A stretch of DNA of 64,000 nucleotides from Hoplostethus atlanticus. Taxonomy: Eukaryota; Chordata; Actinopteri; Trachichthyiformes; Trachichthyidae. The notes under the pieces are model-generated. The model did no database searches. It had not been told where the DNA came from and was given only the letters and a program-made list of their open reading frames with translations. A program made the translations under genes and the position numbers. Shown here in pieces: positions 683 through 50,088 of this stretch. Numbering within the stretch: the stretch's first letter is position 1; each line of letters opens with the position of its first letter. The stretch covers positions 124,001 through 188,000 of the forward strand of contig JAXDDX010000040.1 of NCBI GenBank assembly GCA_034670405.1, written 5' to 3'.

Positions 683-26733
<26,051 letters not shown>

Positions 26734-34047: not shown

Positions 34048-34208
34048 CTATTTGGCGGCGGAACAGTGTAATATTGTGGGACTATTTAAGGCGTCCTCCA
34101 CCAGGTGGAGCTCCACGCCGTCCACGACCACGTCCTTAATGCAGCCCGCGAAGCCGGTGCTGTAGGCCTTGGGCAACCGACGGGCCACCGCCAGCTCCTC
34201 CAAGCCGC
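34048..34208 (-). CDS. agrn: agrn last exon: end of LG3 and stop codon
   Basis: A 161-nt exon reading [38 protein letters not shown] and ending CSAAK then TAG at 34050-34048. It closes the LG3 fold; the Cys of AGCIKDV and the Cys near the end are the expected disulfide pair. The acceptor is CCTCCAG after a long pyrimidine tract. Confidence 0.97.
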
Positions 34209-35636: not shown

Positions 35637-36333
35637 ATACGTGTACATGCAACTGTATGGGCGCATGCAACGTGTCCCTCAAATGTCTCCTCTCAAACCC
35701 GCCGCTTCTCCACCTACCACTGAAAGAAAAGTCAAAAGGCTGATTTTATTTCACCCTCCTCCTCCAGTCAATGTTATTTCCTCCGAATGTTCAATCCAGT
35801 CGCGTCGTGTGTGTTCTTTCAAAAGCGATTTCTCCGAGGGAAGTTCAGACCAAATTGAACTCGAGGAAGATAACGCGCCCGACTATGGTCGTTTTGAATT
35901 CTGGAGAGCAGACTTCCTTTCCAGTTAGTCAGATAGCCTTTCATTTCTCAACTCAATACCTGAATGGGCTTGGACTTTTTTTCTTTTCTTCCCCCAAACA
36001 GCAATCTTTTTTTTTTTTTCCTCCCCCCCTGCCGGGGATTCGCTTATCCTCTGCAATGCCAATGAGTTCATCACTCACTTTTGGCAGCCGTCTACCAGTT
36101 GCTAAGATGAAGAAGTACTACCCAATTACCCGAGTATTCCCCCCTGGCTTGATGCATGGGATTTCTACAGATATTGAGTCTGAATGACGGGGTTGGTTTT
36201 TTTTGTGTTTTTGCATGTACCTACCCAACCAGAGTGCTCCGTCTGTGTCCAGCTGCGTTGCCGCCAAAGGCGACGACCCCGTGACCGCCGCCTCGTTGCC
36301 GACCTGCAGAGAGCCGTCTCTGAGTGCTCTGGG

Positions 36334-36388
<55 letters not shown>

Positions 36389-37725
36389 GATCAGTTGGGA
36401 GTCTGGTTTGATGCATGCGTGTCACACTGAATAGCTTCAAATTGCAGTTTCACTTCAAGACTCCGTTGCGCCGCCGCCAGCACACTGAGCACTTACGTAA
36501 CTCCCCCCACGCCAGGCGGCTTGCTAAATGTGCCCGTCTGAAGCCGACAGATGTGGTTGGAATACCGTTCATTATCGGTGGCTCCACGCTCGCCATTAGT
36601 GCACACTTAGGAATTGTGATGAGAGCGCTCCTTTCAGCCGGTGAAGAGGCTTTTCAGGAGACGGAGTGACAGTCGAGCCGAGCCGTGAACCCGGATAACT
36701 GCAAGCTGTACGCCACATGTCACGGTTTACATCGACATACAAATGATGTCACTCCTTAGGAACCAATGATGTGGATTGTTTGATGTGGATTGTCTATTAC
36801 ATTACATTACAGTCATTTAGCAGACGCTTAGCAGAAGCGACTTCCAAAGGTGAGTTCACACTATGTGGGGATCGAACCCAATTGCAATGGAAGCAATGCA
36901 ATTATCCTCCGAACTCCCGGCCTCCAGGAAGACAAAAACAAATCAAGGACAAAGCCGGGATAAGTACGACTGATCAGTTTCATCATCATGTTTGTACCAG
37001 GGGATCCTTGCACAGAACTCACACAGCTTGCAGCAACTCAAATGCATTACGGATGGCAGCCCCCCTTTACCTGCTGGCCTTGATGCGGATCCAGCGGTTG
37101 GTGTTGACGCGCACCGAGGAGCGCAGCACCACGGGCTTGGAGCCCAGGTCGTAGGTCATCTGGACGTGGCCGTCCACGATGGCCAGGGCGATGTAGTCGG
37201 AGCGCTCCACTCCCTTCCCGCTCCACAGCACCAGGCCCTGGGTCGCCTCCGTCCGGATGCTCAGCTCAAACTTGTTCACCAGCAGAGCCTTCTCGCTAGG
37301 GGAGCAGAACAGGGGTTAGCTGGGCCGGCTAATGGTGCTGATGGAGGTCCAGTCTTAGTGTCTAGGTGTGAGCTCAGGTGATGTTTGTGGTCGTGTGTCA
37401 TTTGCCAATACGTGTGTGAAGGCAGGGTCATTCATTGCTGTGTAAAGGGAATCAAACTCCCGGTTCCCAAGTCTTTCAGTGGCACCGTTTTCCACCGATT
37501 TACAAATATGGTGTGAAGAGAACCCTCCATTTGTGTTTGCTAGGTCACAGAGCCAGAAAGGCTTTTAGCTGCGGGTGTAGGGCCTCATACAGACGGAGTT
37601 ACAGGGTTTGGTGATGATCAGGATGCAGACTGAGTCTAGGAGTAGCGGGGGGGCGTTGTGCTATTAAGCTTCCACTTCCTACTGAGCCTGAACTGCACTG
37701 CTGTTCCCGGCTTCCTCTGTTGTTG

Positions 37726-38153: not shown

Positions 38154-41100
38154 TCACTAATCAGTATCTGTGCAATTGTCTGCACATCTGCCAAGGTGGC
38201 TCTATTTCCTCTTCAAAGGGTATTTAACACACAGAGACAAACACAAAGCAAGCCCACGGACGACAAAGAGCCAATGACACACGGATTAAAAAACACAAAA
38301 CCACAGAACAAAAAACAGTAACACAGGAATGGAGACAAAGATTAGACAGACACGCCAAGACAAACCAGGCAGCATAGCAAACAAGGAGGCTCATGGGAGT
38401 ACGAACACAGGACAGGGAATAGGAGGGGGAAAAAGCAAACTTCTCCTTGAAGTGCAGCCATCTCTATTTCTATCCATTAATGAGCCAGGATATCAGACAT
38501 ATATGCACTGGATTGATGTTTGATTCTGTTTTTGAGCTTAATGACTGCTGGAAGGAAAGGTAACAACAGTAACGCTAATTCACCTCAACAGAAAGGGTCC
38601 ACAATCACATTTGGTTCTCTAAGTTGGGAACTTCGACCTCCTCATTAACTGAGTCCACAGATGTAAAACCACCAACAAAAAAAAAAGAACGTCATATTTT
38701 TTTTTTCTCTGAGAGAAAAAAGCACAAACACACAGCTAAGTGGCCTCTCTCCCGGCCTAACCCTCACAGAGCCCACGGGGGCCCGATAAATCTCCATCAG
38801 AACAGCTCGTCGGGGATAAGGTCATAAATAAAACGTGGCCATTGCACACTATTCCAAATGAGAAAATCATTTGGTGCGGGGAAGCACACCAGCTGTCTTC
38901 ATCAATCTCCCTGTGTGGTTGGCTTTGGTATATGGAGGAATTTCACCTATTTCATGTACTTCTGATATGTGTACAAATTCTCAGAGGGCAAAAACAAACC
39001 GGCCAGAGTGCTTTGCACCTCACGACCTCTAGATGGCAGTAGTGAATAGAATAATGCAAGGGGATTATGGAGGACAGCTACAGCGTATAGACGGAGGCTG
39101 GTTCATGTGCAGAAGCTCTGGCTGAATTTGTGGCTACCAGAGCTCTGGACTTCAGGATGAATTGAGGGTATTTGTAATTCACACTGGTTACAGCATCTAA
39201 ATAAAGGGGACCACGTTGTCTGTATGGAGGAGGAGTGAGCCCTGTGAGAGGTTAGGGGGGTTGTCCGGAGAAAGGGGGAGGATGGGGAGGCGGCAGGCGA
39301 GTGGACGGCACCAAAGGCTAAAAGCTTAGGGAGGACTCACCTCTGGTCAGACGGGTTCTCCAGAGACTCGGGACTTAAGGGAGCAGGGAAGAAAGTTAAG
39401 GGCATGCAGTGTAAGCGCAAGAGGCAGGAAGGAAGGAAGGAAGGAAGGAAGGAAGGCAGGAAGGACTTTGTGAGCCTTACTGGGTGACTCGCAGTGGCAT
39501 CGCATTGCAAAAGGGGCCTACTTTAGTCCTAGAGTGGCAATAAGCATGATTGTTGTGCTCTGGAGCGCTGTTCTGTGATCAGAGGAAGAGCGTCGCCTGG
39601 CCCTGAACGCACCGCCGGCACAAAATGAGGTCCTGAAGGGAACGCCCGCGAGACCACTGGGATGGAGGTGGCCAGGATGCCCAAGCATGAAGCACCAGGA
39701 TTAAGGACATTCACAGCCGGCCTCCCTGCCAGTGCAAAGGCTACTTTAAGTCAGTGTCCAATAATTGGACAACTCCATTATATTGATGGTACTGGCGCCT
39801 TTTGTGCAGCGGCAATTACTGTGTCTTGAAAGATGAAAGCAGTGGATGAGGAAAAAATGGGGCAATTGTCAAAAATGGGGTCATGCATCATAGTGGTCAA
39901 AGAGTCGTGGCCAGATATGATTTGTCACTTAAATAATGGGGCTTGAGCAAATCGACCTGGGCTGGGGGGAGAGGGCGATCAGAGGGCGCTGTAAATAGTC
40001 CCACACACATTAACCCAGGGGTGAGCAGTGGATATCGTGGCCTCTCCAGGAATTCATTCATTTCCTTTACGAAGCCAGATCACGTTGAATTGATCGTCTC
40101 TCCTTCAGAGTGCTCCAGCTTGCTTAGATTCATGTCATGGCTGTGGCTCTTAGGGAATGTGACATCCATTAAACTTAAGACAGTCTGGCTTCAAGGACCA
40201 CTGTCCCACCCCCCACCCGCTAAGTGAGATTGATGCCCACGGCCATGCACTTCGGAGAGATCTTTACAAACGGAGACAAATCCGTGATTAACATGTCACA
40301 GTCACTCTGAACGGAGGACTCTGTAATGCTTCACAATTACAGTTGAGGATTGCCAAAAAAAAACGAAGCTCCGGCAAGGATTGGAAAAAGGAATCAAGTC
40401 GGCTTAATTCGAGCCGAATCCCACTTCGCCGCTTTGTGGGATCTCTTTTCAAAGTGGTTAGTTACCGAGCTAATGAGCAGGAAGGAAAGAAAAAACGTGA
40501 TAACTAAGTCATGACCGACGGGGTTGCAGGGCGTGGGACTGGTGAAACTGGGTTAGGGGGTATTCTGTACGTCCTCTTGCAGTTTTGAAGGGGTCTTATT
40601 CATATTCCACGTAACGGTTAACGCCACGCGGCACAAGGTGCACGGCTATCCGTTTTGCCCGAAGGAAGAGTTACAACCATGCTATGAGATATTGCACATT
40701 CTTGGAACGACAATTCATTTCCTCTGGGGGTTCGAACACAATGCTTATCATGCACACAGACATGCGTCCCTCTACGCTGGGAAAATGGAAGGATCTGATG
40801 TCGGAAAAAAATAGGATGGAGTCTGCCAAATTAAATTACGGTTCGTGGCGCTGGAATGTAAAATTGTACTTTTTGCGGTAGAGATGATGATGTTTCTGCG
40901 TGGATACAGATGGAATTACGGCAGGAAACTGAATGTAATCTCTTCAACGGGGGTTAACTATTAAAAAATGTTTCTTGGTTGCAGTTAGTGGGGCTTCGTT
41001 GGATTTGCTTCGTTCTACTTACTCTGGTATCTCATTGGTCAGTTGGCTTGAGTGGAAAGGAAAGACAGTGAGGGACATTTACATGACACAAGACAAGACA

Positions 41101-41197: not shown

Positions 41198-41232
<35 letters not shown>

Positions 41233-44200
41233 TCCACGAGGCTGCAATGAATCTACAGACCGCCGCCTGTGTTTTTTTCACACCTCTGAGTGTTTGTGTG
41301 AAGCGCCGCGAGAGACGTAGATATACCGCCGTATGCTCGATGTCTTTTCAGGTTCGTCACATGAACCATGAACAGTTTGTTTACGCCAACCTGGAGGCGC
41401 ACTCTTCCCAACCTCGTGGATGGATGGAAGAGGGGAAAAAAAACAAAACGGTCTCATCATCCGCCTGAAGGGACGGGCATTTCTTTTGGCTTTTACAGCC
41501 GACATCCAAACCAGCTTTTACTGAAGTGTTAGAAATTGCGGACGACGTGTTTCTGGATGCCAATTTCGCGAGAACGCCGTGGCCGAAAAGAGGGTTAAAA
41601 CAGTTTTATAAACCCGTGGACAGTGTGCGTGCACGAATCAGTAGACCGCAGAGTGAACCGCGGGTGCTCAGGGGCAACACTGTGATTGTTAGCCGCCTCG
41701 CTAATTAGTGAAATCCACGTCAAAAACGCGGAGCGCCGAGGAAAAGGGGTTGAGTTATTAGCCGAGCGCCTATTGCACCCTGAAGCTCCATAACTGATAT
41801 CATCAACGCTGTCATCATGGCATGACTGAGGGAGGAGATGGATAGACGGAGGGGTTATTCAGCTAATGACTATTACAATGGAGATGCTAAGATGTTCCGG
41901 CTGTCCTCTTCCTTACCTCTTGGTAACGGCGTTGTGGTACTCGATGAACGTCCGACCGTCAAAGGCGATGGCCTCCGTCTCCCCGGCAGACTTCTCGTAG
42001 ATGGCTGTGGAGAAGGGGATGGGGGGGGTGGGGGAGGATGAGAGGATGAGATCACAGCAATCAATACGTAAGAGGCTTCGGTCATTAGCGCTGAAGGCGA
42101 TGGATTGCGAGGCGCTGGCGAGGGGAGGGAGCGTCCGCGCTTTTGTCGTTGCTTTAATTAACGTGAAAGGGACAGCCGACCAACTCGCGCAAGGTTAATG
42201 GGGAAGGCAGCGACTGAGCGCGTGCGAGCGAGACAGAGATGGAGTGAGTACCACGTCGGGTACAGTGACACGAAGATGATGAAAGAGACGTGTAACTCCA
42301 GAAGAGGATCATTTCATAAATATTCAATTGACACATTTCATCATTTTCGTAACTGCCAGTTTCGCTTGAACCCGACGCATAACGGCGCCGGCAAGAGAGA
42401 GACATCACACGCCTGATATCTCATACGTATCCACTTTCTGACATCTAACAATGTTTTTGTCTCACCTAGATAAGAGGAATGATTTGAAAGTAGAAGTGCA
42501 CCTTCCATACAGGAAATCCATGAAAACGCTTTATTTTGAAATCAAGTAATGCTTGTTTCAGTCCCCATCCAGCCAATATGCTGCCATGTATCCTTTCAGA
42601 CTAAAACCCAGGGTGAGTGGGTTGCCATGTAAACCAAACACAGCGATGCAATGAAATCAATTCGGGGTTCTAAATGTGCTTAAACCGAGGACTCCACATT
42701 TCAGCACTGAGACACTCTGTGGTGCGTTCAAGTGCAAGATGACCGCAAGAACAGAGGAAAACAGATACTCACGGTTCTGACAGTGTCCCCCCGAGAAGCC
42801 GTTGAGGCAAACGCACTCGTAGATGTCCAGCTGGGGGTTGCAGCGCCCACCGTTGTGGCAGGGCTCCTGGGAACAGGGGTGGCCCTGGAACATGGCCACG
42901 TTGCTGGCGTGCAGGGCGTTATCCTGCCTGAGGATGGGCGTACCCATCAGGGTGATCTGGGGAAAAACACAGGAGGGTTGAGGGGGCGTCTCAATAGAAG
43001 CTCAGTGTGAATGTCGTGATGAATGTAGCTGCCCCCCGTTTAAAGCAGGGACTAAGATACGTCAAAGACCTTTTAACTCTGCGTGAGTCAGCCCGAGGTC
43101 TTTGTGCAGGTTCCTGTTTGCGGTTCCAAAGCCCAGATTAAAAACAAGAGGAGATTGGCTCTTTGCCATCGAAGGCGTTGGAAGGACCTGCCTGAGGAGT
43201 CTGGGCTGCTAAATCGGTACCATCTTTTAAATCACTTGCTTTTATGTGCTAATCTTTTATTAATTGTTTATGACCTCTCTGGAGGTTTTCCTTTATGTTC
43301 CTTGTCTTGCCTTTTATATCTCCTCCCTTTCACTGGTTCTGCTGCCGATTTTATCAAGTCTTTTTTTTTTTTTTTTTTACTTTTACTCTTTGCAAAGTGC
43401 TATTCTATCATTATTACTCATAACCACTCTTGGTTCTTGTCCAAAGGAAACCAAGGCTTGTGTGTTTGCCAGAATGATCATTAAACCCAATTATAAGCCA
43501 CATACATCATAACATGACGGGTTACATCACAGCTACGTGGACTCAGCTGAACATGTTCTGCATACGAGCATTGCAGTCAAGTGCCTTAGAAATTGCACGT
43601 TGCTACAACACACACGTTAACCGGTACATCAAACTGAAGACCCGTAATGACTTCCTCAACAATTTCATTCCCCGTGGGCGAAGTTAAACAAACTTCACAT
43701 TTAGGCTTTGATTTGCTCGGAACTGTCGAGGGAAATTTTATTTGCAGAAGAGAACTAATGACAAGTTCGCACAAACAGTAACATCCTGCTTTGTTGTTGT
43801 GGGATATTTTTGGCACTCCAAGATGAGCTTTTGCTGGAAAGTGGAGTAGAAGAAAAAAAAACAAAAACTGGAAGGCTGTCAGGGAAAGATCTGAGAATAG
43901 CAAAATAGAGGGACATCAAAATGTGGCTTCTATTATTAGTGCATGCTAATCCAAATGAGCTGCCCGCCACAGTGTGAGCCTCACCATGGAGAACTACTGA
44001 TACGGTGCTCTGTAACACCGCGGTTAACCAGCACGGTTGACTTTAAGGGTACAAGAAGGTTTTGAACAAGTGGGGTAAATGACACGAGATATAGAGGCGT
44101 GTAAACATGTACCTTCTGGATGGTTCCCTTGAAGCCGTCCTTGAGAGCGGCGGCCCTCGCCAGCCGGCTGAAATCAGGAGCTCCGCCCACGTAAAGAGAC

Positions 44201-45856
44201 TCTTTCAGGTTAAGAGCTGTGTGCTGGTTCTGGGGAGACGGGACACAAAAGACGGGTTTCAACGGGTAAGCCAGAGGTGTGCACGCCTGATATATATATA
44301 TTTTTTTTAATTGTATTTCCCAATTCAATCTAATCCAATAAACCACGGGGTCGCAATTTCTTGCACAGGGTTTCTATTAAAGACGTAATCGTGCATGGTT
44401 GTATTCTGGGGAGTCAAGTTATCTGTTTGTGTCCAGGAATCCTTTTACTCAGAATATAGAGACATTAATACACCACACTTGGGGAGTTGTCACAGTCAAA
44501 TAGATTCTCCCATAAAAAAAAGGGATTTATCCATATTGTAGCTGGCGGACGATTTAACGGCGCTTCCTCGCCTTCCACATCAATACACTTGATATATTAC
44601 AAAAACATAATTGATTTCTACGTCTCTCAGAGAGAGTGGTCAATTACCCTCTATCTCTGAGAGACACAAAAGGAAATCAGGAGCGGGCCGGAGTTGAGAT
44701 ATGGATGGCTCTTCTTTACAGACATTTCTAATGAATGGCTGATTATAGCGGCGACCTTTCAAGAGGTTGAGTGTGGAGACACATTAAGTGCAATTCATTT
44801 GAACAGTGTTTCTTTCCATCTAACCTGCGGGACATTTGCCTCGCGCTAGCAAAGGTACGGCTTCCTTCTTTAGCGAGGAAGAGCCGAGCCCCACTTCAGG
44901 AAGGAAGGAATTAATGATCTTTATTTTATGTAGGGCAGTAATTGCCAGAGGGGTAAATTGGAGTTAATTGCTGGAAAAATGATGGAAGGGGCCAAGTAAA
45001 CACGCTTTGTGTGGGGAAGCTGGCACCGGCTCGGCTTTTATTTAGGATGGGATTTGGAGTGCAGAAGGCAGCGGTGCTTGGCTAACGCCCGGGGCTGTGG
45101 GACTGCACCTTGAGCTGCTTCCAAAAGAGACGGGGTGGGGGACCCCAGCCAAGGCCGCTGGACCCAGCGGTGCTCGGCGCCTAAACGCTCAGCCAAAAGC
45201 TTTTCCTCCGACAAGCAGAGCAGTCGTTCATCTCGGTCTTACTACGAACGGTGGCTCTCTATTCTGACCAGTTCATCCATGACCATCACTCCCTCTCCAG
45301 AGGAAGACTGGAAGATGCTAACTCAACCCGTGCATTCACTACTTACCTAACGTTACAGTGAGAGGTCATGCAATGGAATGGGGTTCTTTTGTCTCCAGGT
45401 CGTTTAAACTGCACCTGGATCAGGCCGAGGGAGCCGGGCGGTTTCATGGGATGGTTCTTTAATGTTGTTTGTGTCGTTATGGGCGAGTGAGTGGTGACAG
45501 AGTGGGTGACTTCATGATATTATGGAGACTTTTTTCCTTTTTAGCCCAAACAAAAAAAAAAAAAAGTGAGAGCAGATGACAAAAGAACAGCCTGGCTTGG
45601 CTTGGCACCTCGCTGTCCCCTACGTTCCCTCCCCTTCCTTTTTGCCTCCCTGTCTTTGCTCTCACTTTCGACAGCCACGCGGCGCCGGGCGATATCCCCG
45701 CCTACGCCAGACTAATGAAGACGTGTCTTTGTTGCTAAAAACAATGGCCGTCAGGAAGATGACTGCCTCCCTCCCTCCCTCCCACCCGCCCACCCCCGCA
45801 GCAGATGGACCGAGGTGAAAGCCAAACTGTGTTCTTTAGCAGCATCTCCACTTTGG

Positions 45857-45893
<37 letters not shown>

Positions 45894-46915
45894 GTATGGG
45901 CTTATGAAATGGCAACGTTTGTTTTGTTTTTTTCCTTACAGAACAGACACCTTTTAAACTGTCCACAGCTCTGCAGAAGTGCCTTTTCTGTGCTTTTTTT
46001 TGTCGCATGGTAAAATGAGAGGTGAGAGGACGTCGTGAGCGACTCAAATGAAATATGGTTCAAAGTGACTGGGACTTGTCTCATTACCTTGCGTGATTTC
46101 TTATTTCCAGACAGCACATCATAGAGAAGGAAAAAAATAGGGAGGGAGAGAGGTTATTATGGGAAGACTAGTAAGTGGCTGTGCACAGAGAGGCATGCGG
46201 CAGTAGGCAAGTGCAAAACACACACACACGCGCATGCACACGCACACACACACACACTCACACACACGCGCACACAAACCGGTAAGGGAATGAAGCATAA
46301 GTTGCAAAGAAACACTTAAAGGAATACAAAGCAAAGAACCCACTTACCCGCATGCATTTAATACCTTCACATATATAGACGGTACACATGCATGCACGCG
46401 TGCACGTGGCGGTGCAAGTGTGTGCACGCAAATAACACACGTGCACGAGGCAGTAAGTGCCGCTGTGAGAAGATGAAGAGGAAAAACGCAACCACCGCTT
46501 CACCCGACCTCATTTGCAGAATACCGCCATTTTCATTTCTCCTGTACACACGTGGTCGGTTCTGGTACCGACAGGGTTTCATGCGCCGAGCGCCCGCAGC
46601 AGTGCAGTATATCTATAGATCTGCCTGCGTGCGGCCACCTTTGATATGGTACCGGCTTCTCCAAGCAGAAGCGTGACTCCCTCCTAATTCCTGATGCAGG
46701 AGTGGGGCAGAATTAGCTGGGAGCCATACTGGATGGGGGTCTGCACTGAGCTCCATAACTAGTCTCGGCTCATCCCTTGCCATCCACCCCTCCACCACCA
46801 CCACCACCACCCTCTTCCCTTGCTCTCCTCTTTTAATAAGATTTTCTGCCTCTGTTGCCGGAGTGAAAACACAATTACCATACGGAGGATGGGAGGGAGC
46901 GAGGGGAAGTAAAGA

Positions 46916-46958
<43 letters not shown>

Positions 46959-47795
46959 CATTGTGTCTTGGAGAAAAAACTGATGGAGTTGACAGAGTGC
47001 ATGTTCATAATCACAAATTGTGCTGTTTACTATAATTGGATGACTCACAGGCTTATCAAACTATTAGATCTCCTTCATTTGGAAGTGTGTACCTGCTTTA
47101 TTGGTCTAGACGCGAGGCTGAAGAGTTTCATTACATTTTCCTCACTCCCTCCATCTCTTTTATCTGCCTCTGCCTCCCCAGATACCCCCTCAAAAGCCCA
47201 AATCTATAAAATTGACTGTACGCCGACAGTAAAAAGCCGTTTCTGCTTTCTGTATGCAACACTAAGTTTTATCTCCAGTATGTCAGCAAACTAAAAGGTT
47301 GAGAGAAAAAAAAAGAGAAAAAAGTGGAGTTACAGCACTTCCAAAATCAAGAGAGCTTGTCGAAACTGGCCCCTCTGCAACTGGAGCTCTCCTTCTTACC
47401 TTGACGGGGATGTCGGGGATGTTTGCAACACAAAAAAAAACGAGCCGGCAAGAACGGCGTGAGGCGCAGAAAAGCCTCGGCGAAAGGGGAAAAAGCTTGC
47501 TGATTCGAGGTTGTGGCGATGCTGCGATAAGGGCAAATGAACAAACAAATGCAGTGTGTACGGGCCGCGAGCGAGGCTAGGCGTAGCGCGGGCCATGCCA
47601 GCTGATAGATAAGCGGGGGAGGGAGGGGGAGGAAAGGGGGGAGGGGGGGGGTTTCGGTCCCTCTCTCTTTCTCACCGGCGACTCCCCTCGGACCGGGTCC
47701 TTCCCGTTAACCATGATCTCCCCTTTGCGGTTGGAGCGCTCCAAGTTGATGGTGTTCCACACGTTCATCTTGATCCTCTCCTTACTCCTGGAGGT

Positions 47796-47861
<66 letters not shown>

Positions 47862-50088
47862 ATGAGTCAGAAATGTATAGTTGCATGTTGTTGAAAGTCC
47901 CAGTCACACACTTTCTGAGAGCCAGCATAACACCTTTCTATACTTCGGGGGAAAAGACGCTGCGCCTGGCTGATTTTTCGGGCAGAGCGAAGCACTTTCT
48001 GAACTTGGGGGAACTTTTCAGAGGAGCGCACACCACATGGGCAACATCGACCAATCACAATAAAGAGGTTTTTGGGTTATGTAGGCGGATTGGCTGCTAG
48101 CTCTGCCTCCATCGCCATAGCCGGCACAGGCAGTCCTCTCTTGGTCAAACAAAACACACAACCAGTGGTGCATGCATCTACTGTCGGCTTACCTGAACGT
48201 CATCATGAGTTTGACAATGTAAACTAAGCTGCCATGTTATCACTTGCAAAAATGTGCTCTTTTATCCAGAAAAGCAGAATACCCTGAATGCACCAGGGTT
48301 AGATCAATATTTCAGTGTGCTGATACATATTTCATTAAATATCAGATATTTAGGTTCTGCACAAACACAGCGTCTAAAACCAGCGATGGGATGTTGCTGT
48401 CTTTCTGTCTGGTGTGCTACCGCTGCGTCCTGCTAACCTGATGACGGCGGGTCCCTTGCCCAGGTCGTAGCGAAACTCCAGGATGCCTTCGTTGAGGGCG
48501 AGCGAGATGAAGTCCCCTTTGCCGTCCGTCTTCTGCCCGTTGTAAAAGATCAAGCCACTGGAGTCGTTGGCCATGAGCACCACCGTCATGCTGACCTTTT
48601 GACTGCGGACAGAGCACAAGCCCATGATACACTGATGTACACAGTCTAGACAGAACAGGGGATGTTTGTTTGCTTCGCCGGTCCGGTCGGTGATCTTGGG
48701 TCTTAGAAATACTATCTTCTACAAGCCCTGACTTGTAGATGTGTCACATGTACAACCCTCACTGTCAGTTCAGGTCAACAGGTCTGCTCTGCCTATGGAA
48801 ACTACATCACATTCATATTCAATGCAAGAAGTTGCTGTGCAAAGGCGTGCAAGGGAGGCGGGACTTACTGCAGATCGTGCCCGTAGACATGCAGCCCCTT
48901 CAGCTCCAGGTAAGAGTCTCCGTTGAACAGCGGCATGTAAGCCCCTTTCCTCTCAGCCGCTGGGAAAAAAAACAACACAGAGAGGCCGGATTCACCCTCA
49001 AGTCACATTTGCGGCGCCGATTGAGATTCAGGGAAACGGCGGCTGCATCTTTAAGGGACGCGTCGGCGTGTGCATTATGGAAAGCGATGGATTTTTGTGT
49101 CGCCGTACCCTTTGGGATTAACACTTCCTCTTTGCAGATATTTCAGAAACCTTTATGTCAGACTGATTACCCAGCCTGCCGCAGTCTAACACACAACCTT
49201 TGGAAGTGTGCGGGGGGTTTAACGCCGCGGCTGGGACCCGTGAAATAATGAAGCCATTGTGTTTTTGGCAGGCCGTTTTACAGTCTCACGTCTTTCTAGC
49301 CCGGGATGTCCTGGTCCTGGTGGTGTGGGGTGATGAGGACCGACACCGTGCCGTGAGGGCTTCGCCGTGTAAGGAAAGGAGGCCGATGGGTGAAGTGTGT
49401 TTATGGTGTTGTTGTTTGCGAATGTTACTCTCACACACACACACTCCTAAAAGCTTGTGCACTCGCAGACAAACTAACGCCGGCAAGAAAACCTTCGTTC
49501 GTAATGAGCCGGGATTAGCCGAGTTGAGCTGAGATGAAAAACACTCATTAGCTATTGTGCAGAAGGCCGCTAATGACGACGGCATGGGAGGAGGAAACAG
49601 ACCTGCAGACGCAGCGAGGAGGCGTGCACCAACCTGACCTCTGGTATAGATATGTATACGGAGATGCACCAGATTATAGACGGCATCAGCAAGGCAGCAA
49701 AAAAATACACGATTTGCCGTTCAGAACGTCGTAGCTGCAGACCGAGTCGCTCGTGGTGTGAAGGCGCAGTCAGTTTAACACCGTCTCACACACACACACA
49801 CACACATATATTCTCAAACATTAGCACACACACACACACAGCATAATTCAGCTAAGGCACCGCATGTAAAACAATGGGAATATTGAAATCTAACGTCCCC
49901 CTGCAGCGACTCTTTCAAGGACTGGTTAAACCACCATCTCTCTTTCATCACTAAATTGTAATGATTCACGCTACCGGGGGAAGGAGGCCATTCAATACTA
50001 TCAGAAACACCCTTGAGAGAGAGGAAGTCCTTGGTGGTGAATATCACAGCGGCGAGTTGCGCTGGCAGAAACCCGGCGGAAACCGTAG

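Follow-up and report, generated by a model that had tools for sequence, protein, structure and literature searches.

An intact z8 microexon in the agrin gene of Hoplostethus atlanticus, accompanied by y4 and z11

Agrin becomes synaptogenic when its z8 microexon is switched on. An initial annotation of a 64,000-nucleotide (nt) stretch of the Hoplostethus atlanticus genome (contig positions 124001-188000, within an assembly of 632.8 megabases (Mb)), hereafter the window, placed such an exon at 41023-41046, which raises the question of whether these 24 nt are a genuine agrin z8 exon, still in use, or a look-alike in a long intron. The segment is an intact agrin z8 exon, located at the right place and in the right phase. 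Very probably it is orthologous to z8 of other vertebrate agrins, a neuron-included cassette exon providing the Asn-x-Ile (N-x-I) loop by which LRP4 is engaged, so that MuSK is activated and receptors cluster.

The host gene, on the minus strand, was recognized as agrin by its third laminin-G domain (LG3), whose top five PDB matches are all agrin chains (best E-value 1.7e-119). The microexon lies in a 4621-nt intron between two LG3 exons (see the table). Its letters, CCAACTGACCAATGAGATACCAGA, are preceded by an intron reading tttccactcaag (ending in actcaag) and followed by the donor gtaagtag. The upstream LG3 exon ends with ACC AAG AG, a split codon, before gtaagg, and the downstream one is preceded by ccctag and opens with C GAG AAG. 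Joined without z8, the two exons read AGC GAG (S E) across the junction; with z8 they read AGC CAA CTG ACC AAT GAG ATA CCA GAC GAG and the frame is kept. Eight residues are thereby inserted, the last codon being GA completed by the first base of the following exon, C in the LG3 exon or T in z11, and since GAC and GAT both encode D, the eighth residue is D either way. The AG/GT-bordered exon of 24 nt, in the phase that fits between the two LG3 exons, is thus confirmed by the spliced joint, as it is by the shuffles reported below; the insert, initially read as QLTNEIP, had its sequence right but is one residue longer, QLTNEIPD.

Comparison of the z8-form LG3 with the PDB matched 27 distinct sequences, and the alignments with 1pz8 (E-value 2.1e-102) and with chain A of 3v64 (E-value 2.9e-87), an entry that also holds LRP4 as chain C, are free of gaps. 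We take 3v64, 1pz8 and 8s9p to be the rat, chicken and human agrin structures, respectively. Their z8 inserts read ELTNEIPA, HLSNEIPA and ELANEIPV, with which the fish insert shares 6/8, 5/8 and 5/8 residues in the same order. The LG3 site, the eight-residue length, the L-x-N-E-I-P core and the flanking S...EKAL are common to the fish and the three structures, and position 3 is T in the fish as in 3v64. Outside the insert, counted position by position, LG3 is identical to 1pz8 at 151 of 189 residues and to 8s9p at 132 of 187. Given the LG3 site, the phase and the gap-free alignment to z8 structures, the proposed identity as agrin z8 with an intact N-x-I motif is upheld.

Discopyge ommata, which we take to be an electric ray, offers a further likeness, through a consensus only. 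Its agrin is included in the alignments behind the xLxNEIPx consensus of PMC2874008, which the fish z8 fits, N-x-I/V motif included; the same paper gives two motifs as common to vertebrate agrins and missing from invertebrate ones, xLxNEIPx in the B/z position and KSRK in the A/y position. The later PMC12445529 describes Z microexons located at the same agrin site in Ciona, where they carry N-x-F, and in amphioxus, where they carry N-x-I. In Ciona they are Nova-dependent, and the inserts there have 6 and 5 residues as compared with 8 and 11. For zebrafish, a teleost likened here by description and not by alignment, inclusion of Y and Z in agrin is neuron-specific (PMC10139058), and mutants designed as Z-minus have severely disrupted neuromuscular synapses (PMC6008306). 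The binding of N-x-I to the first propeller of LRP4 is summarised in PMC6966886.

The match stands far from what shuffled introns yield. When compared with a pair of mammalian z8 inserts, none of 2000 dinucleotide shuffles reached at least 5/8 identity to one or the other and only 21 reached 4/8, against the 6/8 and 5/8 observed, even though the shuffled introns hold a mean of 11.9 open, phase-compatible 24-nt AG..GT segments each. The real intron has seven such segments, and N-x-I/V occurs only in z8. This motif was however in place in 85 of the 2000 shuffles, and 10 of the real intron's 211 open candidates with lengths of 6-60 nt, z8 among them, carry it, so that it represents weak evidence when considered alone, and N-x-I by itself was rejected as a proof of z8. 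Among the 242 AG-24-GT pairs on the minus strand of the window, z8 alone scores so high at both splice sites. Across the 632.8 Mb, the pattern x[L/F][T/A]NE[I/V]P between AG and GT, which covered V except for its GTG codon, has two matches, z8 and one other, and its backward control gave 0 and 0 matches. The other match reads FTNEVP and is located at contig C1:14674964-14674991.

The z8 exon is accompanied by its two known partners, z11, by its place, length, phase and 4/11 residues, and y4, by an exact KSRK. The 12-nt y4 lies in an intron with 12 open candidates of that length, itself included, and AG-KSRK-GT was found only at y4 when both strands of the window were searched; 8s9p reads GESPKSRKVPHT at the y4 site. 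The pyrimidine tract of the y4 acceptor is nearly absent. The intron offers 18 open candidates of 33 nt, the length of z11, and z11 is the best among them, with 4/11 residues identical to the insert PETLDSGALHS, which follows ELANEIPV in 8s9p, and 4/11 to the insert PDALDYPAEPS of 1pz7. A candidate with at least four matches to one of these inserts is held by 142 of 2000 shuffles, and to both by 5 of 2000. The residue match of z11 taken alone is therefore moderate evidence, and z11 fits less tightly.

Splice sites were scored with a small matrix for which this agrin gene supplied 11 donors and 12 acceptors, each constitutive site being scored with itself left out. The donors of y4, z8 and z11 exceed 9/11, 10/11 and 11/11 of the constitutive donors, and their acceptors fall below 12/12, 11/12 and 11/12 of the constitutive acceptors, respectively. 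A strong donor combined with a weak acceptor is typical of regulated cassette exons, and z8 therefore fits this type of exon. Regulatory motifs were scanned as five types in six 200-nt flanks, i.e. 30 comparisons with 500 shuffles each. Downstream of y4 (45888..46087, minus strand), YCAY occurs 10 times for 4.0 expected, a count reached by 0/500 shuffles in this one of the 30 comparisons, and a figure to be read with care as this is not the densest stretch nearby. Denser or similar stretches are found at 45336-45555 (13 per 200 nt) and 41856-42055 (11 per 200 nt), about 1 kilobase (kb) downstream of z8 there are 9-10 per 200 nt, and the 95th and 99th percentiles over the minus strand of the window are 7 and 12. 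For z8 and z11, the 200-nt flanks showed no YCAY excess. Upstream of z11, UGC occurs 12 times for 6.8 expected (reached by 0/500 shuffles) and UGCAUG once for 0.03 expected (reached by 3.4% of shuffles). A CA repeat lies at 41199-41228, approximately 150-180 nt upstream of z8; CA repeats can bind splicing factors.

As proposed for this fish, neurons would splice in z8, alone or with z11, adding the eight-residue loop to the last laminin-G domain of agrin. Asn-Glu-Ile of the loop would be lodged in muscle LRP4, in its first beta-propeller, whose engagement would activate MuSK and in turn cluster the acetylcholine receptors. Non-neural cells would skip z8 and make an agrin devoid of clustering activity. 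Inclusion in neurons, binding to LRP4 and the capacity to cluster receptors are thus what we infer for the fish z8 agrin. The LRP4 gene is present in the same genome, one of its first-propeller exons being identical to LRP4 of 8s9p at 70 of 74 residues. Several points weigh against this interpretation. Use of z8 is judged from genome sequence, and most of the first propeller of LRP4 is unreadable in the assembly, which does not show its pocket in full. The insert differs from the structures at position 1 (Q, instead of E, H and E) and position 8 (D, instead of A, A and V). No motif type, whether Nova YCAY, PTB-type or other, clearly exceeds the shuffles within 200 nt of z8: YCAY occurs 6 times downstream for 4.6 expected and 4 times upstream for 11.7 expected, the latter expectation being swollen by the CA repeat; PTB-type motifs occur 4 times upstream for 1.9 expected (11.6% of the 500 shuffles reach 4) and 0 times downstream; and UGCAUG is absent from these 200 nt. 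Since nothing clear stands beside z8 and YCAY-rich stretches occur elsewhere, neural control of this exon rests on homology rather than on motifs.

Three other explanations can be set against an orthologous and functional z8. Real ancestry followed by disuse, z8 being a silent relic in this species, would agree with an exon known from its genomic letters and with an acceptor weaker than most constitutive ones. The inserts of 3v64, 1pz8 and 8s9p, however, also differ from one another, at positions 1, 3 and 8, and the frame, the length, the AG/GT borders, the L-x-NEIP core and the strong donor are all intact, with y4 and z11 in place. We regard such a relic as very unlikely. Less likely still is a z8 included constitutively or outside neurons, and hence without any neural switch. 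The lack of a clear excess of Nova, PTB or other motifs within 200 nt would suit it, whereas the weak acceptor, usual for regulated exons, would not. As for an AG-24-GT segment matching z8 by chance within a long intron, the commonness of N-x-I/V is what it could draw upon, and its probability is close to nil: it was ruled out by the shuffles, the splice-site ranking and the genome-wide pattern, and the partner microexons are moreover found in their expected introns.

Orthology of z8 being the preferred reading, a more specific model of its control could be formulated, in which y4, z8 and z11 would form one jointly controlled neural cassette, with Nova acting largely from the YCAY-rich intron 45336-46087 downstream of y4, several kb before z8, and not from sites beside the Z exons, and with y4 dependent on neural microexon factors. 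We consider this model improbable, and slightly more so given that stretches rich in YCAY also occur outside that intron.

The exons mapped around the three microexons are listed in the table. Once joined, the LG2 exons, the EGF-like exon and the LG3 exons share a single open frame, and Pfam recognizes laminin-G in two stretches of the resulting protein, for which it lists no EGF at an E-value of 0.001. Seven further stretches were submitted to Pfam, among which two contain EGF modules and three have no match. Two translated stretches past the high end of the window resemble follistatin modules by eye, and the agrin gene therefore probably extends there. The LG3 query has 11 matches in the genome, three of which are the agrin LG3 exons of the window, and the other eight are weak (E-values 6.2e-7 to 8.7e-4, 24-32% identity), one being the LG1 exon of agrin itself. 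No second agrin copy or second close LG3 is found among these 11 matches, in an assembly that may be incomplete. The genome also contains a beta-globin exon whose best PDB matches, among them 1xq5, 2aa1 and 6hit, are fish haemoglobins, in support of its being that of a fish.

Table. Agrin exons and neural microexons in the window, in the order of transcription (LG, laminin-G domain)
Feature	Position	Strand	Basis
LG2 exon	48869..48959	-	sequence mapping, Pfam on joined protein
LG2 exon	48438..48602	-	sequence mapping, Pfam on joined protein
LG2 exon, upstream of y4	47676..47787	-	sequence mapping, Pfam on joined protein
y4 neural cassette microexon of LG2, 12 nt, encodes KSRK	46088..46099	-	
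LG2 exon, downstream of y4	44113..44229	-	sequence mapping, Pfam on joined protein
Exon between LG2 and LG3, EGF-like (cysteines, by eye)	42773..42956	-	
LG3 exon, upstream of z8	41917..42004	-	sequence mapping, frame, PDB alignment
z8 neural cassette microexon, 24 nt, adds QLTNEIPD (N-x-I motif)	41023..41046	-	
z11 neural cassette microexon, 33 nt, adds 11 residues	39341..39373	-	same phase as z8, AG/GT borders
LG3 exon, downstream of z11	37071..37295	-	sequence mapping, frame, PDB alignment
LG3 exon	36225..36328	-	sequence mapping, frame, PDB alignment
Final LG3 exon, stop codon at 34048-34050	34048..34208	-	sequence mapping, PDB alignment

Apart from agrin, the window contains SH2-domain stretches recognized by Pfam at 1651-1932 and 4577-4993 (minus strand), downstream of agrin, which by eye resemble an SHP-type phosphatase gene. 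An open stretch of 287 amino acids at 17403-18266 (plus strand) resembles by eye a part of a LINE-type reverse transcriptase.

The initial annotation also held that z8 would be missed by most automated annotation. The XM prefix denotes a predicted record. The zebrafish Z-minus mutation was designed on transcript XM_009296860.2, whose exon 31 is not stated to be z8 in the relevant section of PMC6008306, and the use of this record is a weak hint against that claim.

Agrin z8 and its partners are already known in vertebrates, and the copy described here is an ordinary and expected one, which leaves the knowledge of synapse formation unchanged. Along with those of y4 and z11, it adds a further orthologue to the material on which the regulation of splicing can be compared between vertebrates, and this is its value.
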